Below, in pieces: positions 32,858 to 46,271 of a DNA stretch of 64,000 nt. Every line of letters starts with the position of its first letter. Positions within the stretch are counted from its first letter, which is position 1. Origin of the DNA: Gottfriedia acidiceleris (lineage in GTDB: Bacteria > Bacillota > Bacilli > Bacillales > Bacillaceae_G); NCBI RefSeq assembly GCF_002128425.1, contig NZ_NESS01000002.1, positions 124,001 through 188,000 on the forward strand. Reading direction: 5' to 3'. The translations under genes and the position numbers were made by a program. The notes below the pieces were generated by a model. The model was given only the letters and a program-made list of their open reading frames with translations. It searched no databases and was not told the DNA's origin.

Positions 32858-32875
32858 ATACCGACTGGTTAGTAT
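32858..32875. promoter_or_regulatory. TetR operator, copy 1
   Basis: ATACCGACTGGTTAGTAT is an imperfect palindrome that differs by one base from the site at 39045-39062. Its place just after the predicted transcription start fits repression of the cluster by the TetR protein encoded within it. Confidence 0.7.
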
Positions 32876-32958
32876 CTGAATCGTTTGTTTAAATGAGTCT
32901 AAAGTTTTGAGTAAAATAGGGGTTTTGTATAATAAATACTATTTTAGGAGGTTTTGAA

Positions 32959-33732
32959 ATGCACGTAAAAGAGTTATTTGATTTAACCGGGAAAGTAGCA
33001 ATTATAACTGGTGGTGGACGAGGTCTAGGTGAACAAATTGCGAAAGGATTTGCTGAAGCAGGAGCAAATGTAGTACTTTGTTCTCGAAATGTAGAAGCAT
33101 GCCAGGAAATAAGTGAAGAATTGAAAAGTTTAGGTGTGGAATCTTTCGCTCTCAAGTGTGATGTAACAAACAAAGAGAATGTGCAAAGAGTAGTAGATGT
33201 AACGAAGGAGAAATTTGGTCGAATTGATATTTTAGTAAATAACAGTGGTGCTTCTTGGGGGGCTCCAGCTGAAGAGATGCCATTAGAAGCATGGAATAAA
33301 GTAATGAATGTTAATGTGACCGGTACGTTTTTAATGTCTCAAGCAGTAGGAAAAATAATGTTAGAACAAAAGAGCGGAAAAATTATAAATATTGCTTCAA
33401 TTGCTGGTTTAGTAGGAACGAATCCAAAAGTATTGAATGCTGTTGGTTATAGTGCTAGTAAAGGAGCAGTGATCAGCTTTACAAAAGATTTAGCTGCGAA
33501 ATGGGGTTCAAGTGGCATTTATGTAAATGCATTAGCTCCTGGATTTTTTCCAACAAAAATGACTAAAGATGTTATTTCTCATGGTACAGCTGAAATGTTA
33601 GAAACGATTCCACTTAAGAAATTTGGGAATGAAGATGAGTTAAAAGGAGCGGCTTTATTTTTAGCAGCGCCAGCTTCAAATTATGTGACTGGATCTGTCC
33701 TTGTTGTTGATGGTGGAACATCAATCGTGTAA
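32959..33732 (+). CDS. SDR-family dehydrogenase (first gene of the acyl-CoA cluster)
   Basis: A 257-residue classical short-chain dehydrogenase. The NAD(P)-binding glycine motif is TGGGRGLG near 18-25, the structural NNSGA motif is near 94, and the catalytic Tyr-x-x-x-Lys is in GYSASKGAV (about 163-167). It would interconvert a hydroxyacyl-CoA (or alcohol) and its ketone. An AGGAGG site precedes the ATG. It heads the first half of the cluster, under the TetR-type palindrome. Cofactor and stereochemistry cannot be assigned. Confidence 0.9.
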   Translation: MHVKELFDLTGKVAIITGGGRGLGEQIAKGFAEAGANVVLCSRNVEACQEISEELKSLGVESFALKCDVTNKENVQRVVDVTKEKFGRIDILVNNSGASWGAPAEEMPLEAWNKVMNVNVTGTFLMSQAVGKIMLEQKSGKIINIASIAGLVGTNPKVLNAVGYSASKGAVISFTKDLAAKWGSSGIYVNALAPGFFPTKMTKDVISHGTAEMLETIPLKKFGNEDELKGAALFLAAPASNYVTGSVLVVDGGTSIV

Positions 33733-33767
33733 TGTTTCAAACTTCATAATCAAAAGGAGTTTTGTAA

Positions 33768-34517
33768 ATGGGCAAACTTCATCTTTTGATGAAAAAAGAG
33801 GAAATTGATGATCAAAAACTAAACGATGAAAAGTTAGTAGTCGTTTTTGATATATTGCTTGCTACTTCAACGATTACAGCCGCATTAGCCTTTGGTGCTA
33901 AAGAGGTCATTCCAGTTATGAGTGGACAAGAAGCAGTTCAATATACAAACAAAAATAAGAGCAAAGAATATTTATTAATAGGTGAATATGAAGGGAATAC
34001 AATTGAAGGTTTTCTTTCACCGAATCCATTAACGCTAAAGAAAGTTGTTTCCAATCAGTCAATTGTATTATCAACAACAAATGGAACAGTGGCGTTAAAA
34101 AATTCTCAAAATGCAAAGAGAGTCTACGCTGCATCGATTTTGAATGCAAACGCAGTTGCAAATCATTTAAGACAATCCTATAAAGATGAGTCTGTTATTT
34201 TAATATGTTCTGGATCGTCTGGACAATTTAATATGGAAGATTTTTATGGGGCAGGTTATTTTATTGATTGCCTATTAAATGAATCATATCATTTAGAATT
34301 ATCTGATGCAGCTAGATCTGCCCATCATTTTTACTTAGGTTTAAAAGAAAAATGTAATGATATTTTAGCTGAATCGAATGTCGGTAAAATGTTAATTCGC
34401 TATGGATTTGAAGAGGAATTAAAATTTGTAAGTAATAAAAGTATTTTTGAAGTAGTACCGATATTTATAGATGGTATAAGCGTAGTTAATGCTAATTTTT
34501 CAGAGGAAACTATTTAA
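33768..34517 (+). CDS. 2-phosphosulfolactate phosphatase-family protein (ComB-like)
   Basis: 249 residues of the ComB fold. Recognisable blocks are VVVFDILLATSTITAALAFGA (nucleophile region), LSTTNGTVAL and CSGSSGQFNMEDFYGAG. The founding enzyme removes phosphate from 2-phosphosulfolactate in coenzyme M synthesis; bacilli have homologues in sulfolactate or unknown roles. Here no sulfonate gene is adjacent and the gene is 35 bases after one SDR and 63 before an acyl-CoA dehydrogenase. With a kinase in the same cluster, the substrate may be a phosphorylated acyl intermediate. That last point is inference. Confidence 0.8.
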   Translation: MGKLHLLMKKEEIDDQKLNDEKLVVVFDILLATSTITAALAFGAKEVIPVMSGQEAVQYTNKNKSKEYLLIGEYEGNTIEGFLSPNPLTLKKVVSNQSIVLSTTNGTVALKNSQNAKRVYAASILNANAVANHLRQSYKDESVILICSGSSGQFNMEDFYGAGYFIDCLLNESYHLELSDAARSAHHFYLGLKEKCNDILAESNVGKMLIRYGFEEELKFVSNKSIFEVVPIFIDGISVVNANFSEETI

Positions 34518-34580
34518 CTATTTCTATATAAAACACTGTAACTTGTTAGGCGAAAACAAAATAGTGAAAGGGATGATTAA

Positions 34581-35819
34581 ATGGATTTTTTATATTCGCA
34601 AAAAAGTAAAGAGCTTCAATTAAAATTAACTAAATTTATGGAAACTTATGTTTATCCTAATGAGCGAAAATATGAGGAGCAGTTGAATACTCAAGAAACT
34701 CGGTGGAGTGATGTTCCTCCAATTATGGAAGAATTAAAACAAAAAGCAAAACAAGCAGGATTATGGAATTTATTTTTACCTGAAAGTGATCTAGGAGCAG
34801 GATTAACGAATTTAGAATACGCTCCATTATGCGAAATTATGGGACGATCTATGATTGGACCAGAAGTGTTTAATTGTAGCGCACCAGATACAGGGAATAT
34901 GGAAGTATTAGAAAGATATGGTACGAAAGAGCAGAAGGAAAAATGGTTGATGCCACTTTTAAATGGTGAAATTCGCTCATGCTTTTCAATGACAGAGCCT
35001 GAAGTCGCTTCATCTGATGCAACAAATATTGAGGCAAGTATCAAAAAAGATGGCGATTATTATATCATCAATGGTCGAAAATGGTGGTCATCAGGAGCGG
35101 GGGATCCTAGATGCAAAATTGCAATATTTATGGGCAAAACGAACCCCGATGCACCGAAGTATGAACAGCAATCTATGATTCTAGTACCGTTAAATACACC
35201 TGGTGTAAAAATCGAAAGGGTATTACCAGTATTCGGTTATGATCATGCACCGCATGGACATGCAGAAATTACGTTTACAAATGTAAAAGTTCCTGCAAGC
35301 AATATTTTATGGGGAGAAGGAAAAGGATTTGCAATTGCACAAGGTAGACTAGGACCAGGTCGAATCCACCATTGTATGAGATTGATCGGGGCTGCCGAAC
35401 GGGCACTCGAAGAAATGTGTAAGCGTGTTCAAAACCGAGAAACATTTGGTAAACCTATTTCAAATCAAGGCGTAGTTCAAGAATGGATTGCTAATTCAAG
35501 AATAGAAATTGAGCAAGCTAGATTACTAACCTTAAAAGCTGCATATATGATGGATACTGTTGGTAATAAAGAGGCGAAAGCAGAAATTGCTATGATAAAA
35601 GTCGTCGCGCCTTCAATGGCTTTACGAGTGATTGACCGTGCTATTCAAGCTTTTGGAGCTGCAGGTGTATCTGATGACTATACGTTAGCAGCTCAATGGG
35701 CTAATGCTCGAACGTTAAGATTAGCCGATGGTCCAGATGAAGTACATCGGGCACAGTTAGCAAGATTAGAATTAAAAAAACATGCCTCAGAAAAAAACTT
35801 CTCTACAATAAAAAGTTAA
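34581..35819 (+). CDS. Acyl-CoA dehydrogenase, ACAD10/11 type
   Basis: A 412-residue FAD enzyme. The acyl-CoA dehydrogenase blocks are [18 protein letters not shown] (about 131-149), the [10 protein letters not shown] region, and the C-terminal [19 protein letters not shown] (about 380-398). The DGPDEVH ending, with Asp where classical enzymes have Glu in YEGT, is characteristic of the ACAD10/11 group. In animals these domains act on 4-phosphoacyl-CoA made by a fused kinase. Here a separate APH-fold kinase lies 3.7 kb downstream. The gene follows the ComB-like gene closely and probably shares its transcript. Confidence 0.93.
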
Positions 35820-35852
35820 TAAAATTAAATGACAGATTGAGAGAGGATCAAA

Positions 35853-36605
35853 ATGAGACTAAAAGATAAAATTGCAGTTATTACAGGTGGAGCTAGTGGA
35901 ATCGGACGTGCTACTGCTATTCGCTTCGCAAAAGAAGGAGCAAAAATTGTTATAGCTGACATTAATGAAGTTACTGGTGAAGAAACACTAGGTGTAATAA
36001 AAGAACAAAATCCAGAAGCTATTTTTGTTAAAACTAATGTTGCAAAGAGCAAAAGCATTCAAAATTTGATTCAGCAAGCTGTCGAACATTTTGGTAGAAT
36101 TGATATTTTATTTAACAATGCTGGAATAGGAAACTCCGAAGTAAGAAGTGTAGACTTAGAGGAAGAGGAGTGGGATCAGGTAATTGATATAAATTTAAAG
36201 AGTGTTTTTTTAGGGATAAAGTATGCAATTCCTGAGCTAATAAAATCTGGCAATGGTGTAATTATTAATACAGCAAGTTTACTAGGCTTAAAAGGAAGAA
36301 AATATGTAAGTGCTTACAATGCTTCTAAAGGTGGAGTAGTATTATTAACGCAAAATGCAGCATTAGAGTACGGAAAATATAATATTCGAGTAAATGCAAT
36401 TGCTCCAGGAATAATTGATACAAACATTATTGAAGAATGGAAAAAAGATGAAAGAAAGTGGTCAATTTTATCTCGTGCAAATGCATTAGGTAGAATTGGA
36501 ACTCCAGATGAAATTGCATCAGCAGCATTATTTTTAGCATCTGATGAAGCATCGTTCGTGACTGGAGCAACGTTATCAGTTGATGGTGGAGGATTAATAT
36601 TCTAA
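35853..36605 (+). CDS. SDR-family dehydrogenase
   Basis: The 250-residue classical SDR has TGGASGIGRAT near 12-22, LFNNAGIG near 87-94, and the active-site YNASKGGVV with Tyr near 155. The C-terminal SVDGGG is typical of 3-oxoacyl reductases and related dehydrogenases. It probably oxidises a hydroxyacyl-CoA in this pathway. GAGAGGATC precedes the ATG, 33 bases after the dehydrogenase gene. Confidence 0.9.
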   Translation: MRLKDKIAVITGGASGIGRATAIRFAKEGAKIVIADINEVTGEETLGVIKEQNPEAIFVKTNVAKSKSIQNLIQQAVEHFGRIDILFNNAGIGNSEVRSVDLEEEEWDQVIDINLKSVFLGIKYAIPELIKSGNGVIINTASLLGLKGRKYVSAYNASKGGVVLLTQNAALEYGKYNIRVNAIAPGIIDTNIIEEWKKDERKWSILSRANALGRIGTPDEIASAALFLASDEASFVTGATLSVDGGGLIF

Positions 36606-36665
36606 TCTATTAGCTTTGAATAGTAGTTTTAAACAATATTCATGATCTGAAATGGAGAGTTATGT

Positions 36666-38288
36666 ATGCTGACAAATAAAGTTTGGTTATCTCACTATCC
36701 TGAATATATTGCAAAAGAACTATCAATTCCGAGAAAATCAATTCCTGAAATGTTTAACGAAACCGTCGAAACCTATCCTAATCATTCATGTCTATCATTT
36801 TATGGTAACAAAAAGACTTATAAAGAAGTACAGTCGGCAGTAAATTCATTTGCTTCTGCTTTGCAAAAAAACGGAATTCAAAAAGGTGACCGTGTAGCAA
36901 TCATGCTTCCAAACTGTCCACAATATGTTGTTTCATATTATGGAATTCTTACGATAGGTGGAATCGTAACCCAAGTAAATCCAATGTCCGTTGAAAGAGA
37001 ACTAAAAGATTTATTAAATGACTCAGGTACTGAAACGATTGTAGTATTAAACAGTTTGTACCCTACCGTCAAATCGTTAGTAGAAGAAACGAATGTACGA
37101 AAAATTATTGTCGTAAATTTAAATGGTACAGAAGAGAATTATAACGTAGGGATATCATTTGAAAAATTTTTACAAAGTGGAGATCAAGAATTGAAGCCAG
37201 TCACAATTGATTCTCATGAAGATGTTGCAATTCTTCAATATACTGGGGGAACAACTGGACATTCAAAAGGAGTAATGCTAACGCACCGAAATCTATATGC
37301 AAACATAATGCAGCAAGCAGAATTTTTTAAAGGCGCATTTGATCCTGGTCGCGAGCGGGTCTTATCAATCATACCGTTTTTCCATGTTTATGGAATGACA
37401 GTATGTATTAATTTAAGTGTTTTTATGGCAAATGAAATGATCATCCTTCCTCGTTTTGAAATTGAAGAAGTTTTAAATACGATAAAAAATGAACAACCTA
37501 CGCTATTTCCAGGAGTTCCAACAATGTATGTTGCATTAATAAATCATCCTGAATCTGAAAAATATGGAATAGATGCAATAAAACTTTGCAATAGCGGCAG
37601 TGCACCGATGCCAGTAGAACTAATGAAGCAATTCGAAAAAAAGACAGGTGCTACAATATTAGAGGGTTATGGATTATCTGAAGCATCTCCAACGACTCAT
37701 AGTAACCCAGCATTTGCAGCAAGAAAGCCTGGCACAGTCGGTATTCCTTATCCATCTACTGATTCCAAAATCGTTGACCTAGCTAGCGGATTACACGAAG
37801 TTCCAGTAGGTGAAATTGGTGAATTAATTATTAAAGGTCCACAAGTGATGAAAGGTTATTGGAACTTGCCGGAAGAAACTGCAAATACAATTAGAGATGG
37901 ATGGTTATATACTGGTGATATTGCGAGCGTCGATGAAGAAGGATACGTGTCAATTTTAGACCGAAAAAAGGATATGATTATCGCTAGTGGCTTTAATGTG
38001 TATCCTCGCGAAATCGAAGAAGTAATTTATGAACATCCTTACGTAAAAGAAGCTGTTGTAATAGGTGTACCCGACACGTATCGAGGGGAAACAGTGAAAG
38101 CAGTGATTGTACTTAAAGAGGATAAACATCTTACTGTAGAAGAAATGAAGGAATACTGTAAAAATAATTTAGCGACATATAAAGTTCCACGATTGATTGA
38201 ATTCCGAAAAGAACTACCAAAAACAAATGTTGGCAAAATATTAAGAAGAACTATTAGAGAAATAGAAAGTACGATAAAGCAGGGGTAA
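36666..38288 (+). CDS. AMP-forming acyl-CoA ligase (long-chain fatty acid-CoA ligase-like)
   Basis: 540 residues of the ANL superfamily. The P-loop YTGGTTGHSKGVMLTH lies near 192-207, GYGLSEASP near 337, the hinge region YTGDIASVDEEGYV near 417, KDMIIASGFNVYPREIEEV near 437-455, and the catalytic lysine in NVGKILRR near 522. It activates a carboxylic acid to acyl-CoA at the expense of ATP and would feed the cluster. It resembles FadD-type ligases with a medium or long chain preference. It is the last gene of the first half; a hairpin follows. Confidence 0.94.
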   Translation: MLTNKVWLSHYPEYIAKELSIPRKSIPEMFNETVETYPNHSCLSFYGNKKTYKEVQSAVNSFASALQKNGIQKGDRVAIMLPNCPQYVVSYYGILTIGGIVTQVNPMSVERELKDLLNDSGTETIVVLNSLYPTVKSLVEETNVRKIIVVNLNGTEENYNVGISFEKFLQSGDQELKPVTIDSHEDVAILQYTGGTTGHSKGVMLTHRNLYANIMQQAEFFKGAFDPGRERVLSIIPFFHVYGMTVCINLSVFMANEMIILPRFEIEEVLNTIKNEQPTLFPGVPTMYVALINHPESEKYGIDAIKLCNSGSAPMPVELMKQFEKKTGATILEGYGLSEASPTTHSNPAFAARKPGTVGIPYPSTDSKIVDLASGLHEVPVGEIGELIIKGPQVMKGYWNLPEETANTIRDGWLYTGDIASVDEEGYVSILDRKKDMIIASGFNVYPREIEEVIYEHPYVKEAVVIGVPDTYRGETVKAVIVLKEDKHLTVEEMKEYCKNNLATYKVPRLIEFRKELPKTNVGKILRRTIREIESTIKQG

Positions 38289-38328
38289 GTAATAGTATCC
38301 TACTCTTAAGGAACCATAGTATATTTTA

Positions 38329-38371
38329 AAAGGAGCATCCATATATATAGTAAGATGTGATGTCCTTTTAT
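38329..38371 (+). terminator. Terminator after the CoA ligase gene
   Basis: AAAAGGAGCATC and GATGTCCTTTT pair with one bulge around an AT-rich loop. It separates the first half of the cluster from the TetR gene. Confidence 0.5.
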
Positions 38372-38410
38372 TGAATTAATTAGATTATTATAAAAACTTC
38401 CTTGTACTAT

Positions 38411-38418
38411 GATATAAT
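38411..38418 (+). promoter_or_regulatory. Extended -10 promoter element of the TetR gene
   Basis: A perfect TATAAT at 38413-38418 is preceded by TGA, forming the extended -10 TGnTATAAT. No good -35 is seen. It lies 34 bases before the TetR start codon. Confidence 0.5.
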
Positions 38419-38451
38419 TCTATTGAATTTTTAAGATTGCGAGGACATCAA

Positions 38452-39021
38452 ATGAAACAAAAGATAAAGGAACATTCAATACAGCTATTTGATAAAAAAG
38501 GATTTACAAGTACATCCATTCAAGATATCGTCGAATCGATCGGAGTTACAAAAGGAACATTTTACTATTATTATACTAGTAAAGAACAGCTTCTAATGGA
38601 AATTCACCTTCAATTTATTGATGAAGTATTAAATGAGCAGGAAGACGTTATTAATGATTCAAAGAAAAGCTTTTCAGATAAGCTGTTTGAAGTCATTTAT
38701 TTAAGCTTAATGGACATTAAAAAGCAAGGTCCAAGTGCAAAAGTGTTTTATCGTGAAATGAGACATTTAAATCCAGAAAGTTTAACAGAAATTAAAGCAA
38801 AAAGGGATTTATACAGATTTAATATTGAGAAACTTCTTAATGAAGGAATTAAAAATGGTGATTTAAGATCAGATTTAGACGTACCAATCGTTACATTCGG
38901 TATTTTAGGAGTTATGAACTGGAGTTATGAATGGTATAACGCTGAAGGTGAAAAAAATGCATTTGAAATAGCGAAGTCATTCCAAGAAATGATCTTAAAA
39001 GGGATTAAAGTAGGAGAGTAG
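38452..39021 (+). CDS. TetR-family transcriptional repressor
   Basis: 189 residues from ATG 38452 (GCGAGGA upstream; the in-frame TTG at 38437 is too early). The N-terminal TetR helix-turn-helix is complete: TSTSIQDIVESIGVTKGTFYYYYTSKEQL. The helical ligand domain (about 75-185) would bind an inducer. Similar regulators (FadR/YsiA, PfmR types) respond to acyl-CoA in fatty-acid gene control. It lies in the middle of the acyl-CoA cluster. The same 18-bp palindrome occurs upstream of both halves, so it most likely represses both until an acyl-CoA accumulates. Confidence 0.92.
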   Translation: MKQKIKEHSIQLFDKKGFTSTSIQDIVESIGVTKGTFYYYYTSKEQLLMEIHLQFIDEVLNEQEDVINDSKKSFSDKLFEVIYLSLMDIKKQGPSAKVFYREMRHLNPESLTEIKAKRDLYRFNIEKLLNEGIKNGDLRSDLDVPIVTFGILGVMNWSYEWYNAEGEKNAFEIAKSFQEMILKGIKVGE

Positions 39022-39035
39022 CCTATTGTCTCCTA
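39011..39035. terminator. Inverted repeat after the TetR gene
   Basis: TAGGAGA (39011-39017) and TCTCCTA (39029-39035) pair, with further matches between GGGAT and ATCCC outside. A T tract is lacking, so it is a weak terminator or a regulatory hairpin. Confidence 0.3.
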
Positions 39036-39044
39036 ATCCCTTAC

Positions 39045-39062
39045 ATACCGACTAGTTAGTAT
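39045..39062. promoter_or_regulatory. TetR operator, copy 2
   Basis: ATACCGACTAGTTAGTAT matches 17 of 18 bases of the site at 32858-32875. It lies between the TetR stop and the thioesterase start, in position to control the second half of the cluster. Confidence 0.7.
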
Positions 39063-39103
39063 TGGTAAATACAAAATAATTTTGAAAAAGGTAGGTAGTT
39101 TTT

Positions 39104-39505
39104 ATGGAAAAATTCACCGTTACCCCTAGATTTTGTGAAACCGATGCATTAGGTCATATTAACAATACTAGTTACTTTATTTATTTAGAAGAAGCGCGAA
39201 TTAAATTCTTCCAATCGCTTGGCTATTCAATGAATCTAGATGATTGGAAGTTTATTCTAGCATCTACAAAGTGTGATTTTGTTAATCAAGGTCACTTTAA
39301 TCAAAAAATGACAGTATCTACCTATATATCAAAAATAGGAAATAAAAGCTTTCATCTCGAACATGAAATTTGTTGTGAAGAGACAAATCAATTAATCGCA
39401 ACCGGTAATGCGATTATCGTATTTTTTAATTTTAAAGAGCAGCGTAGTGAAGTACTTCCTAAGTTATTTAGAGAACAGTTAGAAAGGCATTTAGTTGTAA
39501 AATAA
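39104..39505 (+). CDS. Acyl-CoA thioesterase (4HBT/YbgC-like hotdog)
   Basis: A 133-residue single hotdog domain. The 4HBT active-site pattern is present: FCETDALGHINNTSYF with Asp14 as the probable catalytic residue. It would hydrolyse an acyl-CoA to free acid and CoA in the cytoplasm. It heads the second half of the cluster directly behind the second operator. In this setting it may release CoA from dead-end intermediates. Confidence 0.9.
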   Translation: MEKFTVTPRFCETDALGHINNTSYFIYLEEARIKFFQSLGYSMNLDDWKFILASTKCDFVNQGHFNQKMTVSTYISKIGNKSFHLEHEICCEETNQLIATGNAIIVFFNFKEQRSEVLPKLFREQLERHLVVK

Positions 39506-39535
39506 ACTGAATTTTCTTAATAAAGGAGGGTTAAA

Positions 39536-40603
39536 ATGGCTGAAAAAATAGAATTAGAAACGATTCAAGTTCGTAAAGGTGAAGAGTTAAATCCTCATGT
39601 TTTACATAAATTTTTAGAAAAAAATATTGATGATCTTCCAGATGGAGAATTAACGATTAGTCAGTTCTCAGCGGGTCATTCAAACTTAACTTATTTATTA
39701 AAAATTGGAGAATGGGAAGTTGTGTTAAGACGTCCGCCACTTGGCCCAGTTGCTCCAAAAGCACATGATATGAAAAGAGAATTTCGTATTTTATCAGAAA
39801 TACATCCTCACTTTTCGGCTGCACCTAAGCCAATTTTATATTCAGAGAATGAAGTAATTGTTGGTAGTCCATTTTTCATAATGGAAAGAAAAAATGGTGA
39901 AGTATTTGACTCATCATTTCCTCCACATTTAAACGTAACGATTGAAGATCGTAAAAGGCTATCTACTGTAATGGTAAATAAGCTAGTAGAATTACACTCC
40001 ATTGATTATACGAAAACGACACTTCTAGAAATAACTAAACCTGAAAATTTTATGGAAAGACAAATTAACGGCTGGATTGGGCGTTATAACAGGGCAAAGA
40101 CTAGTGATATTGCTGAGGTTGATCGACTAATGAGTTGGTTGATCAATAATGTACCAAAGATGCATGACTCATCAATCATTCATTATGATTTTAAATTGAA
40201 TAATTCGATGTTTAGTCAAGATTTAAAAGAAATGATTGGCCTATTTGATTGGGAAATGACAACAATAGGCGATCCATTGGCTGATTTAGGCGTGGCTTTA
40301 TGCTATTGGATTCAAAATGATGATCCAGATTTATTAAAATATGGATTAGGTAAACCACCTGTTACGATTCAAGAAGGATTTATGACAAGAAATCAATTGA
40401 TTGAGGCATATGCAAAGAAAAGTGGCAGAGATTTATCAAACATTAATTACTACATGGCTTTCGCCTATTTTAAATTAGCAGTAATTGTTCAACAAATCTT
40501 CTATCGATTTAAAGCTGGACAAACAAGTGATCAGCGTTTTGCGAAGTTTGACCAATTCGCAGAAAATTTGATTAGAATTGCGAATGAGTTAGCAGTTAAA
40601 TAG
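39536..40603 (+). CDS. APH-fold kinase, ACAD10/11 N-domain / LvaA-like
   Basis: 355 residues of the aminoglycoside phosphotransferase fold. The catalytic loop is HYDFKLNN (His216, Asp218, Asn223) and the metal-binding Asp238 is in LFDWEMTTIGDPLADLG; the opening FSAGHSNLTYLL is the nucleotide loop. All kinase residues are intact. Its close relatives are the kinase domains of ACAD10/11 and LvaA, which phosphorylate 4-hydroxyacyl-CoA; drug resistance is unlikely in this context. An AAAGGAGGG site precedes the ATG, 30 bases after the thioesterase. Confidence 0.88.
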   Translation: MAEKIELETIQVRKGEELNPHVLHKFLEKNIDDLPDGELTISQFSAGHSNLTYLLKIGEWEVVLRRPPLGPVAPKAHDMKREFRILSEIHPHFSAAPKPILYSENEVIVGSPFFIMERKNGEVFDSSFPPHLNVTIEDRKRLSTVMVNKLVELHSIDYTKTTLLEITKPENFMERQINGWIGRYNRAKTSDIAEVDRLMSWLINNVPKMHDSSIIHYDFKLNNSMFSQDLKEMIGLFDWEMTTIGDPLADLGVALCYWIQNDDPDLLKYGLGKPPVTIQEGFMTRNQLIEAYAKKSGRDLSNINYYMAFAYFKLAVIVQQIFYRFKAGQTSDQRFAKFDQFAENLIRIANELAVK

Positions 40604-40627
40604 ATTCATATAAAGGGAGTGTTATAA

Positions 40628-41407
40628 ATGAGTAATCAACATTTATTAGTAGACGTTAATGAGCGGATTTTGACTTTAACGTTAAATAGGCCCGAAAGTT
40701 TAAATTCTTTTAGTTATGAAATGTTAATTGGTATTACAGAGGCGCTTAATCAAGCTAAAATGAATCCGGAAATCAAAGCAATTGTATTAACGGGAGCTGG
40801 TCGCTCGTTTTCAGCAGGTGGAGATGTGAAAACGATGGGAAACGTCACTCCCAATGCTGTATACGAGCATATCGGAATCTTAAACACAGTAATTAAAACG
40901 ATTCGAGAGATTGAAAAGCCAGTAATCGCTTCAGTTCATGGTTTTGCAGCTGGTGCTGGTTTTAACTTGGCTTTAGCATGTGATTTAATCATCGCAGCAG
41001 ATAATAGTAAATTTGCATTAAGTTTTTCTCAAGTTGGATTAATTTCAGATGGTGGAGGTTCTTATTTCCTACCAAGGTTAATCGGTCCATATTTAGCAAA
41101 ACAGTTTTTCTTTACTGCAGAGCCAGTTCCTGCTGAAAGAATGTATCAGCTAGGTATTATTAATACACTCGTATCACCTGAAAATTTAGCTGCAGAAACA
41201 GTAAAATTTGCGAATAAAATAGCCGCAGGACCTGGAAAAGCAAATGGCATGATGAAAAAATTAATTGATCAATCTTTTACATCCACATTAGATGAAATGC
41301 TAGAGCTTGAAAGAATTACTCAGCCATTAATGGTAGCAACTGAAGACCACCTGGAAGGTGTTGCTGCATTTAAAGAAAAAAGAAAAGCGATTTTTACTGG
41401 AAAATAA
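40628..41407 (+). CDS. Enoyl-CoA hydratase/isomerase (PaaG-like)
   Basis: A 259-residue crotonase-fold protein. The oxyanion-hole segments are GRSFSAGGDVKTM (near 58-70) and HGFAAGAGFNLALACDL (near 99-115). The catalytic region reads FSQVGLISDGGGSYFLPR: the hydratase Glu of the second position is replaced by Asp, as in PaaG-type isomerases. It should add water to, or shift the double bond of, an enoyl-CoA. AAGGGAGTG precedes the ATG, 24 bases after the kinase gene. Confidence 0.92.
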   Translation: MSNQHLLVDVNERILTLTLNRPESLNSFSYEMLIGITEALNQAKMNPEIKAIVLTGAGRSFSAGGDVKTMGNVTPNAVYEHIGILNTVIKTIREIEKPVIASVHGFAAGAGFNLALACDLIIAADNSKFALSFSQVGLISDGGGSYFLPRLIGPYLAKQFFFTAEPVPAERMYQLGIINTLVSPENLAAETVKFANKIAAGPGKANGMMKKLIDQSFTSTLDEMLELERITQPLMVATEDHLEGVAAFKEKRKAIFTGK

Positions 41408-41428
41408 AAAGCTGAAAGGAAGTTTACG

Positions 41429-42412
41429 ATGAAATCAATTCAATTTAAACAATTTGGCGGCCCTGAGGTATTAGAAAAAGTCGAACTTGAAAGACCAGTA
41501 CCAAAGGGGAAAGAAGTATTAATTGAAGTACATGCAGCAGGTGTTAATTATGCTGATACAGCGCGAAGAGAAAATCAATATGTCGTCAAGACTACTTTGC
41601 CATATGTACCTGGTGCTGAGGTTGCCGGAGTCGTAGTGGAAATTGGAGAAGAGGTTACTTCAGTTAAAATTGGTGATCGAGTTGTTTCAATGCTTGAGTG
41701 TGGTGGTTATTCAGATTTTGCATTGACAGATGAGCGCTCGATTATTCATTTACCAAACGAAATGGATTTTAAAATAGCCGCCGCATTACCTGTCCAAGGA
41801 TTAAGCGCTTATCATATTTTAAAAACGATGGGTATGTTAGAACCAGGTGAAACCGTTTTAGTTCATGCTGCAGCAGGTGGTCTCGGTACTTTAGCAGTGC
41901 AATTAGCGAAGCTTTTTGGAGCTGGCAAGGTAATCGCAACAGCAAGTACGGCTGATAAATTACAGCTAGCGAAAGAGATGGGTGCAGATGTATTAATCAA
42001 TTACACAGAAGAAGGCTGGGATCAAAAAGTATTAGAAGCTACAAACGGAAAAGGTGTAGATGTTGCCTTAGAGATGGCTGGTGGCGATGTTTTTTATAAA
42101 ACGTTAGATTGCCTAGCTTATTTCGGAAGATTAGTTATTTATGGTGTAGCAAGTGGCCAGCAAAGTAAGTTTTACCCATCATCTTTAATGGCAAAAAATC
42201 AATCAGTAATCGGCTTTTTCTTACCACCACTTTTGAGAAAAAAGGCATTAATTAAACAAAGCTTAGAAGAGTTATTTACTTATTTAGCTGAAGATAAATT
42301 AAAAATCACGATTGGAGAAGTATTTCCATTAAGTGAAGCAGCCAATGTCCATACGATATTGCAATCAAGAAAAACAGTTGGAAAAGTGATTTTAGAACCG
42401 AGAAAATATTGA
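41429..42412 (+). CDS. NADPH:quinone oxidoreductase-like MDR enzyme
   Basis: 327 residues of the medium-chain dehydrogenase/reductase superfamily, zinc-free quinone oxidoreductase group: an N-terminal GroES-like domain with GVNYADTARRENQY and a Rossmann domain with HAAAGGLGTLAVQLAKLFGA near 145-164. The zinc-ligand cysteines are absent. Possible reactions are reduction of a quinone or an enoyl thioester. In the cluster it may reduce an unsaturated acyl-CoA. GAAAGGAAG lies before the ATG. Confidence 0.9.
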   Translation: MKSIQFKQFGGPEVLEKVELERPVPKGKEVLIEVHAAGVNYADTARRENQYVVKTTLPYVPGAEVAGVVVEIGEEVTSVKIGDRVVSMLECGGYSDFALTDERSIIHLPNEMDFKIAAALPVQGLSAYHILKTMGMLEPGETVLVHAAAGGLGTLAVQLAKLFGAGKVIATASTADKLQLAKEMGADVLINYTEEGWDQKVLEATNGKGVDVALEMAGGDVFYKTLDCLAYFGRLVIYGVASGQQSKFYPSSLMAKNQSVIGFFLPPLLRKKALIKQSLEELFTYLAEDKLKITIGEVFPLSEAANVHTILQSRKTVGKVILEPRKY

Positions 42413-42459
42413 ATTTTTGATTTGAAAAATTTGATTTGATCGAAACGGGGGAAATTTAA

Positions 42460-43638
42460 ATGCATTTACGCCTGACTGACGAACAAAAAATGATCCAAAA
42501 AACAATTCGAAAATTTGTTGAAAAAGAATTAATCCCTTTAGAGAATGAAGTACTTAGAAATGAGCGTGAAGGTAGACCAAGCTTAGATCCTGCAGTTGAA
42601 AAAGAACTTCAATTAAAAGCGAAAAAAGCTGGTTTCTGGGGAATTAATACACCTGCTGAATATGGTGGTGCTGATTTAGGTCAAATGATGTTAGCGATTA
42701 TTTATATGGAAATTTCAAAAACATTCGTTCCTTTTAAATTTGGTGGATATGCTGATAATATTTTATTTTATTGTAACGAAGAACAAAAAAAGAAATACTT
42801 GATTCCAACTATAAATGGCGAAAAAAAATCTTGTTTTGCGATGACGGAGCCTAATGCGGGCTCTGATACGCAAAATATTAAAATGACCGCTGTAAAGGAT
42901 GGAAATGAATGGGTATTAAACGGTGAAAAAACATTTATTACAGGTGGAAACGAAGCAGATTTTGTAATGGTCATTGCAATTACGGATAAAGAAAGGCATC
43001 AAAAAACTGGTGGTAGAGATGGTGTAACTTGTTTTATTGTCGACCGGGACATGGGGTGGAGGTCTGAATTTATCCATACAATGGGTGAATGGGGGCCAGC
43101 TGGTTTAGTATTTGATAATGTCCGTGTGCCTGAAGAAAATATTTTAGGTGAATTAAATGGTGGATATAATTTAGGTCTTGAATGGATTGGCTTTGCGAGA
43201 TGGATTGTAGGAGCGACAGCGGTTGGAGCAGCTGAACGTTTATTACAAATGGCAATTGATTATTCAAAAGAAAGAGAAACATTTGGAAAACCAATTGCCG
43301 AACGACAAGCTATTCAATGGCAAATTGCAGACTCTGCTGTTGAAATCGAAGCTGCAAAATGGCTTGTATTAAATGCAGCGTATACACTCGATCAAGGTGA
43401 AGACAACAGACATTTAGCATCAATGGCAAAACTATATGGTTCAAATATGGGTAATCGAGTTGTTGACCGTGTACTTCAAATTCATGGTGGAATCGGTTAT
43501 ACAAAAGAACTTCCAATTGAAAGATGGTACCGCGAAGCAAGACTATGGAGAATATACGACGGTACTGATGAAATTCAACGCTTAATCATCTCACGTAATT
43601 TACTAAAAGGACATGTTAAATTAGGACAGTACGTTTAA
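42460..43638 (+). CDS. Acyl-CoA dehydrogenase
   Basis: The 392-residue FAD enzyme has CFAMTEPNAGSDTQNIKM near 127-144, [33 protein letters not shown], and the end block IHGGIGYTKELPIERWYREARLWRIYDGTDEIQR. At the place of the catalytic Glu of medium-chain enzymes (YEGT) this protein has Asp (YDGT), judged by eye. It would form the 2,3-double bond of an acyl-CoA and pass electrons to ETF, which is not encoded nearby. A GGGGGAAA site precedes the ATG. Confidence 0.93.
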   Translation: MHLRLTDEQKMIQKTIRKFVEKELIPLENEVLRNEREGRPSLDPAVEKELQLKAKKAGFWGINTPAEYGGADLGQMMLAIIYMEISKTFVPFKFGGYADNILFYCNEEQKKKYLIPTINGEKKSCFAMTEPNAGSDTQNIKMTAVKDGNEWVLNGEKTFITGGNEADFVMVIAITDKERHQKTGGRDGVTCFIVDRDMGWRSEFIHTMGEWGPAGLVFDNVRVPEENILGELNGGYNLGLEWIGFARWIVGATAVGAAERLLQMAIDYSKERETFGKPIAERQAIQWQIADSAVEIEAAKWLVLNAAYTLDQGEDNRHLASMAKLYGSNMGNRVVDRVLQIHGGIGYTKELPIERWYREARLWRIYDGTDEIQRLIISRNLLKGHVKLGQYV

Positions 43639-43656
43639 AAGAGAGGAGAGAGGAAA

Positions 43657-44415
43657 ATGGCAGGAAGATTTGAAGGTAGAGTAGCCTTTATAACAGGTGG
43701 TAGTCGAGGAATCGGAAAAGGAATCGTAGAATTATTTGCAAAAGAAGGAGCAAAAGTAGCCATTATTGATGTGAACGAAGAAGCGCTATCACAAACTTCT
43801 TCTGAATTTAAACAGTATGAAATATTCACAAAAGTTGCAAACGTTACAAATTCCAATGAAGTTGAAACTGCTATGAAAGAAGTACATGATACATTTGGTT
43901 CAATCGATATTATAGTCAATAACGCAGGTGTTATTCGCGATAATTTATTATTTAAAATGACAGACTCAGACTGGGATACTGTTATGGATGTTCACTTGAA
44001 AGGTTCTTTTAATGTTGTACGTGCTGCACAAGCCTATATGGTTAAACAAAAATATGGAAGAATCATTAATATTTCTTCAACTTCTGCGCTTGGTAATCGT
44101 GGACAATCAAATTATGCAACTGCAAAGGCTGGTTTACAAGGTTTAACGAAAACACTTGCAATTGAACTCGGTAAATATGGAATCACATCTAACGCTGTGG
44201 CACCAGGGTTTATCGAAACTGAAATGACGAAAGAAACAGCAAAACGAATCGGTATTACGTTTGAACAACTTGTTGAAGCAAGTTTAAGTCAAATACCAGC
44301 AGGAAGAACAGGTAAACCAGAGGATATTGCAAATGCGGTTGCTTTCTTTGCTGATGAAAAGTCTTCCTATGTAAATGGTCAAGTTTTATATGTTGCAGGT
44401 GGACCTAAAGCATAA
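43657..44415 (+). CDS. SDR-family 3-oxoacyl reductase (FabG-like)
   Basis: 252 residues with TGGSRGIGKG near 13-22, IVNNAGVIRDN near 87, catalytic Ser in NISSTSALGNRGQSNYATAKAGL with Tyr near 152 and Lys near 156, and the FabG-like closing ending YVNGQVLYVAGGP. Of the three SDRs in the cluster this is the closest to FabG. Placed directly before two MaoC hydratases, it may handle (R)-3-hydroxyacyl-CoA. GAGAGGAGAGAGG precedes the ATG, 18 bases after the dehydrogenase gene. Confidence 0.9.
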   Translation: MAGRFEGRVAFITGGSRGIGKGIVELFAKEGAKVAIIDVNEEALSQTSSEFKQYEIFTKVANVTNSNEVETAMKEVHDTFGSIDIIVNNAGVIRDNLLFKMTDSDWDTVMDVHLKGSFNVVRAAQAYMVKQKYGRIINISSTSALGNRGQSNYATAKAGLQGLTKTLAIELGKYGITSNAVAPGFIETEMTKETAKRIGITFEQLVEASLSQIPAGRTGKPEDIANAVAFFADEKSSYVNGQVLYVAGGPKA

Positions 44416-44435
44416 AAAAAATTGAGGTGAATTAT

Positions 44436-44885
44436 ATGTTTAAATCTTTTATTGGTAAACGGTCTAAATCAGTAAAAAATACAGTGGAACGTGGTGCTGT
44501 GAAAAAATTTGCTGAAGCAATTGGTGATTTACATCCAATTTATGTTGACGAAGAATACGGAAAACAATCTAGATATGGACAAAATATTGCGCCGCCCACA
44601 TTTCCTAGAGTATTTGACTATGGGAAAATAGAGAATTTTAACTTACCTAATGTTGGTCTAATTCATGGTGAGCAAACATTTGAATATAAAAGGCCACTTT
44701 TAGTTGGTGAAACCATTAATTGTTTTACAGAGATAAAGGATTATTATGAAAAACGTGGTGGACATGGGTTTATGGGTTTTCTAGTACTGTCAGATAACGG
44801 AGAAGATCAAGCAGGCAATATTGTATTTACTGCGAAATCAGTAGTTATCATAACAGAAGAGGTTAGGAAGGTGCTATCGGTATGA
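44436..44885 (+). CDS. MaoC-family dehydratase, N-terminal (FAS1-type) subunit
   Basis: 149 residues from ATG 44436, with GAGGTG seven bases upstream; the GTG at 44427 overlaps the ribosome site. The hotdog fold is of the MaoC_dehydrat_N type: AEAIGDLHPIYVDEEYGK, then APPTFPRVFDY and HGEQTFEYKRPLLVGE. The full hydratase-2 motif is not conserved, as in the non-catalytic HadA-like partner of mycobacterial pairs. The stop overlaps the start of the next MaoC gene, which suggests a heterodimer. Confidence 0.85.
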   Translation: MFKSFIGKRSKSVKNTVERGAVKKFAEAIGDLHPIYVDEEYGKQSRYGQNIAPPTFPRVFDYGKIENFNLPNVGLIHGEQTFEYKRPLLVGETINCFTEIKDYYEKRGGHGFMGFLVLSDNGEDQAGNIVFTAKSVVIITEEVRKVLSV

Positions 44886-45286
44886 CGGAATTATTAGATT
44901 TGCAAATTGGCGATTCGTTGAAACCAGTCGTACTTGAACCAGTATCTCGAATTGATCTAATAAAATACGCAGGAGCTTCAGGTGATTTTAATCCAATTCA
45001 TACAATTGATGAAGAAGCAAAGAAAGCTGGTTTACCTGGAATAATTGCACATGGCATGTGGACAATGGGGAATTTAGCGAAGCTTTTTTCAGATTATGTA
45101 GAAGTCGGCTTTATTGAAAATTACTCCATTAGATTTAAAAATATGGTATTTCTAAATGATGTAATTACATTAAATTCAACATTCGAAAAAGTTGATGAAA
45201 ACATACTACATTTTAAAGTAAACGCAAAAAACCAGAACGATGTATCTGTTATTACTGGTAAAATTTTATTTAAATTATATGAATGA
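44882..45286 (+). CDS. MaoC-family dehydratase, catalytic subunit
   Basis: A 134-residue hotdog protein with the (R)-hydratase motif: YAGASGDFNPIHTIDEEAK, where Asp and His are the catalytic pair, and PGIIAHGMWTMG later. The ATG overlaps the preceding stop (ATGA), so translation is coupled. With its neighbour it would hydrate or dehydrate an acyl-CoA, giving the (R) isomer. The pairing recalls HadAB and ChsH1/ChsH2. A terminator follows, ending the cluster. Confidence 0.9.
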   Translation: MTELLDLQIGDSLKPVVLEPVSRIDLIKYAGASGDFNPIHTIDEEAKKAGLPGIIAHGMWTMGNLAKLFSDYVEVGFIENYSIRFKNMVFLNDVITLNSTFEKVDENILHFKVNAKNQNDVSVITGKILFKLYE

Positions 45287-45300
45287 TACGCAATGTAATT

Positions 45301-45328
45301 GGGACTTCTAAAAGGAGTCCCTTTTTTA
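45301..45328 (+). terminator. Terminator of the acyl-CoA cluster
   Basis: GGGACTTCT and AGGAGTCCC pair with one wobble around a three-base loop, then six Ts. Confidence 0.9.
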
Positions 45329-45428
45329 TTTTAAAAATTGGACTATGACTAATGTTAATTTTACATTAAATACGATTTGGATACAGTGTATTTACACATA
45401 ATATTAAAAAACGAAATAGGTGAGAAAA

Positions 45429-46271
45429 ATGGATCTTTCATTTGATAAATTATTAGAGCAATTTGATTTAAAAAAAAATGAACACCAAAAAAATATGCAT
45501 AAGGTTAACAAAAGAATAGATGAAATAGAGTCTCATATGGAAGAAATTAAAAAGCAATTACATAATTTTGACCATCAAATTGTTAATATAGAAAAAGAAT
45601 TAAAAACGACTTTATCAATGATTAGCAGTGAAAATGAATCTGGTTCACATCACAATATAGATCAAAGTAAAGGACATGAACATAAGGAACATAAAGAGCA
45701 TCATGAACAGCACAAACACCACAATCATCAAAAAGATCATGAACACCATCTTGATCATCCTAATTGGGCTGAAAATCTAATAAATAATGTAGAAGAATTT
45801 TCTGCAAGTATATTTGAACCTAACCAGGAAGGTCATAAAGAACATAAAGAACATCAAGAACATCAAGAGCATAAAGAATATCAAGAGCAACAAGTCCATG
45901 AACATCACGAGGAAAAGTCAAGTAACTCAAGAGTAGCTAATAGGAAAAAGTATAATAATCAAAATATAGAAAATATGAACCAGTATTCTGCAAGTACAAT
46001 GGACGAAATTCAAACGAGCGGACTAACTACAGGATTAACGAGTCTGAACGAAAAAAATTATACGGAATTAACTTCTATTACAAATCATAATAACGAGCAA
46101 CATCAAAATCACAATCATAGTTACAATCAAGAAAATCTCTCTAGTCAAAAGACATCTGAACAATTATTAGAAACGGATTTTTCTGATTTATCGATTGATG
46201 ATTGGGAAGACACAACTACGAACTTATCAATGTCAGAATGGTTTGAAGTTGATCCTAATGATAAAAGATAG
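45429..46271 (+). CDS. Histidine/glutamate-rich coiled-coil protein
   Basis: 280 residues from ATG 45429 (AGGTGAG in front). An N-terminal coiled coil (about 14-65) is followed by a His/Glu/Lys-rich tract at 83-110 with about a dozen His, and a second at 136-160 built of HKE and HQE triplets. The rest is Asn/Ser/Gln-rich and probably disordered, ending in an acidic segment (DFSDLSIDDWEDT). There is no signal peptide or membrane helix. The tracts suggest binding of zinc, nickel or copper, or a role in spore layers, where His-rich proteins are common. I do not recognise a family. Confidence 0.75.
   Translation: MDLSFDKLLEQFDLKKNEHQKNMHKVNKRIDEIESHMEEIKKQLHNFDHQIVNIEKELKTTLSMISSENESGSHHNIDQSKGHEHKEHKEHHEQHKHHNHQKDHEHHLDHPNWAENLINNVEEFSASIFEPNQEGHKEHKEHQEHQEHKEYQEQQVHEHHEEKSSNSRVANRKKYNNQNIENMNQYSASTMDEIQTSGLTTGLTSLNEKNYTELTSITNHNNEQHQNHNHSYNQENLSSQKTSEQLLETDFSDLSIDDWEDTTTNLSMSEWFEVDPNDKR

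Follow-up and report, generated by a model that had tools for sequence, protein, structure and literature searches.

A candidate phosphorylation and phosphate-elimination route for 4-hydroxy acids in Gottfriedia acidiceleris, with a kinase-linked ComB-family gene

How might a member of the Bacilli break down 4-oxo and 4-hydroxy acids? The question is raised by a cluster of 14 genes in a 64,000-nucleotide stretch of DNA from Gottfriedia acidiceleris (assembly GCF_002128425.1, contig NZ_NESS01000002.1, positions 124,001 to 188,000 of the forward strand; hereafter, the window), whose genome has a size of 4.77 Mb. The genes all point in a single direction, with gaps of at most 148 bp between them; an operator-like site at 32858 and a terminator-like hairpin at 45301-45321 bound the cluster (Table 1). 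Among the genes are those of an APH-fold kinase and an acyl-CoA dehydrogenase (ACAD). The first-pass annotation had proposed that these two, as separate proteins, phosphorylate 4-hydroxyacyl-CoA and convert it to enoyl-CoA. Our analysis suggests that the cluster is probably a TetR-controlled catabolic unit for 4-oxo/4-hydroxy acids, which would proceed by phosphorylation and phosphate elimination, with recycling by a phosphatase.

The ACAD10/11-type dehydrogenase

Judged by its sequence, the dehydrogenase is of the ACAD10/11 type, with the predicted catalytic aspartate and an RxxxxRxxHCMR phosphate pocket. Its best solved relatives are 4hr3, human ACAD11 (E value, 1.1e-142), and mouse ACAD11 (about 1e-139), compared to 5e-43 for the first solved chain outside the ACAD11 group; given this difference, and the conservation of the cluster in relatives, the match is not a chance one. 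BLAST identity is 55.6% to human ACAD11 and 54.1% to mouse ACAD11; FadE3 and the cluster's own second ACAD reach 31.8% and 32.2%, respectively. Related loci were collected as the nearest by kinase similarity (the best 80 of 159, all from Bacilli), and 77 of these 80 hold an ACAD11-type gene at 60% identity or above. In a 48-row tree that used 22 of the 77 (LvaC was not included, and Rhodococcus L103 was dropped, its ACAD being without the motif), the window enzyme falls in a 39-row clade with human and mouse ACAD11 (support, 100/99), with two caveats: the long branches of the outgroups meet, and bootstrap values have not fully settled. Membership in the ACAD10/11 group, for which phylogeny had been named beforehand as the test, is what the tree recovered.

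The phosphate-binding residues are also kept. According to PMC12440821, R626, H634, R637, and D753 of mouse ACAD11 serve the 4-phosphoacyl substrate, and R631 is common to ACADs; in ACAD10/11, the activity of the ACAD domain was disrupted by substitutions of R626, H634, and R637. All 79 Bacilli rows, i.e., the window, the 77 loci, and one Cytobacillus plasmid, have all five residues (mouse ACAD11 numbering). Among seven outgroup rows, R626 and H634 are found in none and R637 in one, and an Asp occupies the D753 position in one, the second ACAD of the window, which is itself without R626, H634, and R637. The DGPDEVH motif with which the dehydrogenase had been said to end is present but lies about 30 residues before the C terminus rather than at the very end. 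No second ACAD11-type gene was found in the genome (the next best match is 33% identical), and neither the ACAD nor the kinase nor the ComB-family protein described below scored over the cut-off of any NCBIfam equivalog.

Fold and family are shared with ordinary acyl-CoA dehydrogenases, and the enzyme might simply be one of these. We regard this as very improbable given the catalytic Asp and the phosphate pocket; moreover, ACAD10/11 were inactive on unsubstituted C6-C22 acyl-CoAs under the conditions used, according to PMC12440821.

Separately, two kinase-linked ACADs at other loci (L116, 4788-5981; L120, 3784-4965) are only 30-34% identical to that of the window yet keep the R/R/H/R/D set (RLSPARLSHCMR, DGPTEV). 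Based on these motifs, such ACADs are a possible second subfamily of phosphate-eliminating dehydrogenases.

The APH-fold kinase

The kinase carries HxDxxxxN at 216-223 and D238, as first reported, and H216, D218, N223, and D238 are invariant across 23 aligned kinases. Its superfamily is clear, being that of the ACAD11 kinase and 3dxp. Identity is 90-95% to the kinases of Gottfriedia and unclassified Bacillus strains (L012-L017), 59.8% to 9o56, 32.3% to the mouse ACAD11 kinase, and 28.9% to 3dxp. The closest solved kinase, 9o56, was deposited as an "aminoglycoside phosphotransferase," and our literature search found no publication on it. In a tree built with 22 of the 80 Bacilli loci, the clade of the window kinase also holds 9o56, Deinococcus, Rhodococcus L103, and the proteobacterial kinases, described below, that are linked to a histidine phosphatase (support, 94/96, just under the level starred by the tool). 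The originally proposed route is supported in part, by the ACAD family, the pocket residues, and the kinase superfamily, although in the tree the kinase falls in another lineage than that of ACAD11. We consider it a candidate 4-hydroxyacyl-CoA kinase on the strength of its motifs and relatives.

The structure model of the kinase (mean predicted local distance difference test [pLDDT] score, 89.6) matched 3dxp best. Right behind it came 25-hydroxysteroid kinase (9ft5 and 9fsg, named from the entry titles), with ACAD11 at rank 9, and a weak sequence match to 25-hydroxysteroid kinase (1.6e-12) was also obtained. The kinase could therefore act on another hydroxylated lipid, such as a steroid or isoprenoid side chain, with the ACAD acting on its product. 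However, the kinase resembles that of ACAD11 much more closely in sequence (1e-43), and its partner ACAD possesses the entire pocket for 4-phosphoacyl-CoA. In addition, the bare ACAD11-SDR-kinase core (SDR, short-chain dehydrogenase/reductase) stands alone in Lysinibacillus and Deinococcus. A steroid or isoprenoid substrate is therefore improbable.

Pairing of kinase and dehydrogenase across genomes

Among 121 Bacilli-class genomes, including that of the window, 31 have both genes, 4 have the kinase only, none has the ACAD11-type gene only, and 86 have neither (cut-offs, E ≤1e-120 for the ACAD11 type and E ≤1e-70 for the kinase); the co-occurrence has a Fisher value of 8e-25, a statistic that ignores kinship. 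The two genes lie on one contig at most 10 kb apart in 26 of the 31 genomes, as read off the result tables. For the three kinase loci without a nearby ACAD11 gene, one exists elsewhere in the genome in every case. SDR1 (at least 55% identity) was found in 79 of the 80 loci, and in 67 of 77 at most 200 bp separate it from ACAD11. In nine Lysinibacillus loci, ACAD11, SDR1, and the kinase are the only query genes present; a LysR gene precedes the core in the two of these that were read gene by gene, as confirmed by Pfam for L075. The one Deinococcus region opened has ACAD, SDR, and kinase as overlapping genes. The core is real and, from its sequences, appears to be a separate-protein version of the ACAD10/11 route; it was found in 31 of the 121 Bacilli sampled, or roughly one in four.

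The kinase-linked ComB-family protein

Of the 80 loci, 52 have a gene of the PF04029 (ComB) family linked to the kinase, and none was found in the remaining 28. In 45 of the 52, the aligned part of this gene begins 3-92 bp past that of the kinase, and in seven (L012-L018) the gene sits between SDR1 and ACAD11, as in the window. Its AlphaFold2 model (pLDDT, 94.4) has the ComB fold (template modeling score, 0.89-0.94; root mean square deviation, 1.6 against 1vr0). The linked group (n = 55, i.e., the window, the 52 loci, L163, and L164) keeps D28, E73, N105, N126, E157, and D158 invariant. In contrast to the 2-phosphosulfolactate phosphatase 1vr0, with which it shares the fold and the acidic residues D28, E73, E157, and D158, the group has lost the Arg of the DxLRA[ST] motif (R31, present in 1vr0 and 2yyv), which is replaced by Leu in 54 of the 55 and by Met in the other; N85 is Pro in all 55, C221 is V, A, or I in all 55, and other Arg positions are lost as well. 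In 12 other PF04029 proteins, the motif Arg position holds R in eight, S in three, and K in one. The linked group makes up 25 of the 37 rows of a ComB tree, with support (93/88) under the tool's starred level; this tree used 23 of 53 linked sequences and left out L122/L157 and L129/L158 (PF04029, about 2.1 kb from ComA). These features suggest that the phosphatase core is intact and that the pocket has changed, becoming less basic.

The family name would have these proteins make sulfolactate, in keeping with their PF04029 membership and ComB fold. This we regard as the most remote of the alternatives. ComA (PF02679) had no match in the G. acidiceleris genome, with B. subtilis as a positive control. 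Among 41 genomes chosen from the 80, the linked gene was found in 31, ComA was not found in 24 of these 31, and ComA was found in 8 of the 41. Those eight have another PF04029 gene at most 0.2 kb from ComA in five cases, about 2.1 kb away in two, and none in one, and no ComA-side gene is the kinase-linked copy. Finally, the Arg, Asn, and Cys positions common to 1vr0 and 2yyv are replaced in the linked group.

The gene was not found in 28 of the 80 loci, those of Rossellomorea and Lysinibacillus among them, so that it is not a universal requirement of the pathway, and it may be a passenger or a general phosphatase outside the pathway. This explanation is unlikely, although it deserves serious weight: the gene starts within 3-92 bp of the kinase end in most linked loci, the seven relocated copies stay within the cluster, the residue changes are specific to the clade, and two further clade copies have an enoyl-CoA hydratase gene as neighbor, in one case together with a kinase. 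We tentatively propose, at somewhat less than an even chance, that the ComB-fold proteins linked to the kinase form a new family of enzymes, namely 4-phosphoacyl-CoA or free 4-phospho acid phosphatases that would set the kinase/phosphatase balance of 4-hydroxy acid breakdown.

The two further copies, at L163 (2321-3124) and L164 (2011-2748), come from the genomes of L046 (Planococcus) and L045 (Alkalihalobacillus), and their loci hold TRAP-transporter-like and acyl-CoA genes; the APH kinase beside one of them is its own. A second, highly divergent PF04029 protein (SFSSTV versus LRATS) is encoded elsewhere in the G. acidiceleris genome (L105, 1462-2226), and similar ones occur in several relatives. 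We also considered that the 4HBT thioesterase travels together with ComB, which was rejected: both were found in 31 loci, 4HBT only in 14, ComB only in 21, and neither in 14.

Phosphatase genes beside the kinase in other lineages

Why such loci keep a phosphatase beside the kinase is an overlooked question. Nineteen plasmid regions were opened, and kinase and ACAD were found by annotation or BLAST in 14. A histidine phosphatase gene directly follows the kinase in 5 of these 14 (L093, L095, L096, L117, and L118), with PF00300 confirmed in all five. The five linked kinases form one clade, and their ACADs form one clade with Mycobacterium abscessus 4hr3; the link therefore represents a single proteobacterial lineage rather than five independent events. 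These megaplasmid loci resemble the window in having an ACAD11-type dehydrogenase, an SDR, and a phosphatase gene directly after the kinase. They differ in that the phosphatase is not homologous, LysR lies upstream in four of the five, and the SDR follows the phosphatase in L093.

A histidine phosphatase gene also adjoins the lvaA homologue of Pseudomonas citronellolis, and the authors suggested that the phosphatase may take the phosphate off 4-phosphovaleryl-CoA (PMC6692424). For Pseudomonas, credit for proposing a phosphatase here thus belongs to them. In ACAD10, the HAD domain restrains the kinase and has negligible phosphatase activity, as stated in PMC11342911. If our reading of the ComB-family protein is true, unrelated phosphatase folds came to this step at least two times, with the ComB fold in Bacilli and histidine phosphatase in Proteobacteria, and the ACAD10 HAD domain could be a third case, now regulatory. 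The puzzle of kinase restraint by that domain would become testable in a simple bacterium with separate genes.

TetR and a repeated operator-like site

An 18-bp near-palindrome occurs at 32858 and 39045, in copies that differ by one base. With up to three mismatches, 0.03 matches were expected in the window, and two were seen in none of 100 shuffles. No other exact copy occurs in the 4.77-Mb genome. Genome-wide, up to three mismatches gave 5 sites, compared to 10 for the reversed control, so that weaker sites mean nothing. An operator-like site was found in 64 of the 69 loci that bear tetR and in 1 of the 11 without a tetR match, the consensus having been taken from the same loci as were scored; nine of those 11 are from Lysinibacillus and so are not independent. 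In total, 100 operator-like sites were counted in the loci, compared to 0 in one shuffle per locus. The repeat suggests that both operons are tied to the local TetR regulator, which presumably binds there. FadR-box patterns (TGAATGANNNNTCATTCA and a shorter form) gave nothing over chance; it was direct inspection of the upstream DNA that revealed the repeated site.

The proposed route and its relation to known systems

In the route that we propose, the CoA ligase would convert the acid to its CoA ester, SDR1 (or SDR2) would reduce 4-oxoacyl-CoA to 4-hydroxyacyl-CoA, and the APH-fold kinase would place a phosphate on the 4-hydroxyl. The Arg/His/Arg pocket of the ACAD11-type enzyme would then hold this phosphate while the Asp takes the alpha proton, such that phosphate is expelled and a 2-enoyl-CoA is formed with no net oxidation. 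The hydratases, SDR3, and the second ACAD could carry the enoyl-CoA onward via beta-oxidation. The uneliminated intermediate may be freed of its phosphate by the ComB-family phosphatase, possibly aided by the 4HBT thioesterase, and so become usable again.

Several observations weigh against this assignment. The kinase tree separates the window lineage from ACAD11 and 3dxp, with no characterized 4-hydroxyacyl-CoA kinase among the window-lineage rows, and the kinase is 32% identical to that of ACAD11 and 29% to 3dxp. LvaA and LvaC enter the argument by their description. The ComB-family gene is missing from the 28 loci mentioned above, and the cluster has no thiolase gene. The best NCBIfam model over cut-off for SDR1 is a subfamily named gluconate 5-dehydrogenase. 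Finally, the SDR slot between ACAD and kinase recurs, and outside Bacilli the SDRs that fill it are 31-34% identical to a window SDR (L092, L095, L117, and L118; the ORF finder did not recover the SDR in L096 and L098), which led us to reject a single orthologous SDR across phyla.

As in mammalian ACAD11 and ACAD10, the dehydrogenase (54-56% identical to ACAD11) has the complete R626/H634/R637/D753 set and the kinase has the same fold and catalytic residues. In contrast to the mammalian proteins, kinase and dehydrogenase have a gene each, with 3.7 kb between the two; identity of the kinase is 32%, and the gene for a HAD domain is absent from the window cluster. This split is a known bacterial state: separate LvaA and LvaC are the form found in Pseudomonas, and separate Burkholderia orthologues substitute for ACAD10 domains in vitro, according to PMC11342911. 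The split arrangement is thus not new, and what is new here is mainly the ComB-fold phosphatase. PMC6692424 reports lvaABCD homologues from Alpha-, Beta-, and Gammaproteobacteria, and our literature search, thin on subscription papers, found no report of a Firmicute version or of a ComB link. The phosphate-elimination route for 4-hydroxy acids would thereby be extended to Bacilli.

The lva operon of P. putida and P. citronellolis likewise has a separate kinase, ACAD, SDR, and CoA ligase, likened here by enzyme kind, and in P. citronellolis (PMC6692424) there is no lvaB in the levulinate gene region and a phosphatase gene adjoins that of the kinase. The missing LvaB is therefore no objection. 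As first noted, no LvaB counterpart is visible in the window cluster, where gaps of at most 148 bp leave no room for a 12-kDa protein; the search for LvaB was not extended to the rest of the genome. The systems differ in the fold of the phosphatase (ComB versus histidine phosphatase), in the regulator (TetR versus LvaR), and in the extra beta-oxidation genes of the window. The cluster could thus serve a short-chain levulinate pathway like lva rather than longer 4-hydroxy fatty acids, since its enzyme kinds match LvaA, C, D, and E and the P. citronellolis cluster groups kinase, phosphatase, ACAD, and SDR (PMC6692424). Nevertheless, the ligase scores as long-chain, and the further beta-oxidation genes include a second ACAD, so that we consider a short-chain pathway doubtful, though far from negligible.

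Gene content of the cluster

Profile searches bore out the CoA ligase, three SDRs, and hydratases listed in the first-pass annotation, the hydratases being an enoyl-CoA hydratase and a FAS1_DH/MaoC pair. That annotation did not mention the ComB-family phosphatase, TetR, the 4HBT thioesterase, the second ACAD, the quinone-oxidoreductase-like gene, or the repeated operator.

Table 1. Features of the cluster, in window positions
Feature	Position	Strand	Basis or remark
TetR operator copy 1, ATACCGACTGGTTAGTAT	32858..32875	.	Before SDR1; predicted, binding presumed
SDR1, candidate 4-oxoacyl-CoA reductase with a possible LvaD-like role	32959..33732	+	NCBIfam
ComB-family (PF04029) phosphatase, kinase-linked clade	33768..34517	+	Pfam; AlphaFold2 model versus 1vr0
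ACAD10/11-type dehydrogenase, putative 4-phosphoacyl-CoA phosphate elimination	34581..35819	+	Search, alignment, tree
SDR2	35853..36605	+	Profile search
Acyl-CoA ligase, long-chain type	36666..38288	+	One long-chain subfamily model, NF004837, over cut-off
TetR-family regulator	38437..39021	+	TetR_N and TetR_C_24; weaker YsiA-like match
TetR operator copy 2, ATACCGACTAGTTAGTAT	39045..39062	.	Before 4HBT-kinase operon; predicted, binding presumed
4HBT-type thioesterase	39104..39505	+	Profile search
APH-fold kinase, candidate 4-hydroxyacyl-CoA kinase	39536..40603	+	Profiles, alignment, tree, structure model
Enoyl-CoA hydratase family	40628..41407	+	Profile search
Quinone oxidoreductase-like	41429..42412	+	PIG3-like, slightly under that model's cut-off
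Second acyl-CoA dehydrogenase	42460..43638	+	Profile search; alignment row L107
SDR3, FabG-like	43657..44415	+	Profile search
FAS1_DH-type hydratase subunit	44427..44885	+	Profile search
MaoC-type hydratase subunit	44882..45286	+	Profile search
Terminator-like hairpin	45301..45321	+	9 pairs, T-rich tail; 3′ of last gene

Terminator-like sites number 7 in the region, compared to 5.8 expected, so that the case for the hairpin at 45301 rests on its position. The stretch from the second ACAD through SDR3 and FAS1_DH to MaoC (42460-45286) occurs as a separate module in relatives L039, L050, and L061. Just past the cluster, at 45420-46271, lies a gene for a His/Glu-rich protein (HEHKEHKEH...) with no Pfam match, which is found in the same place in the seven nearest relatives (L012-L018).

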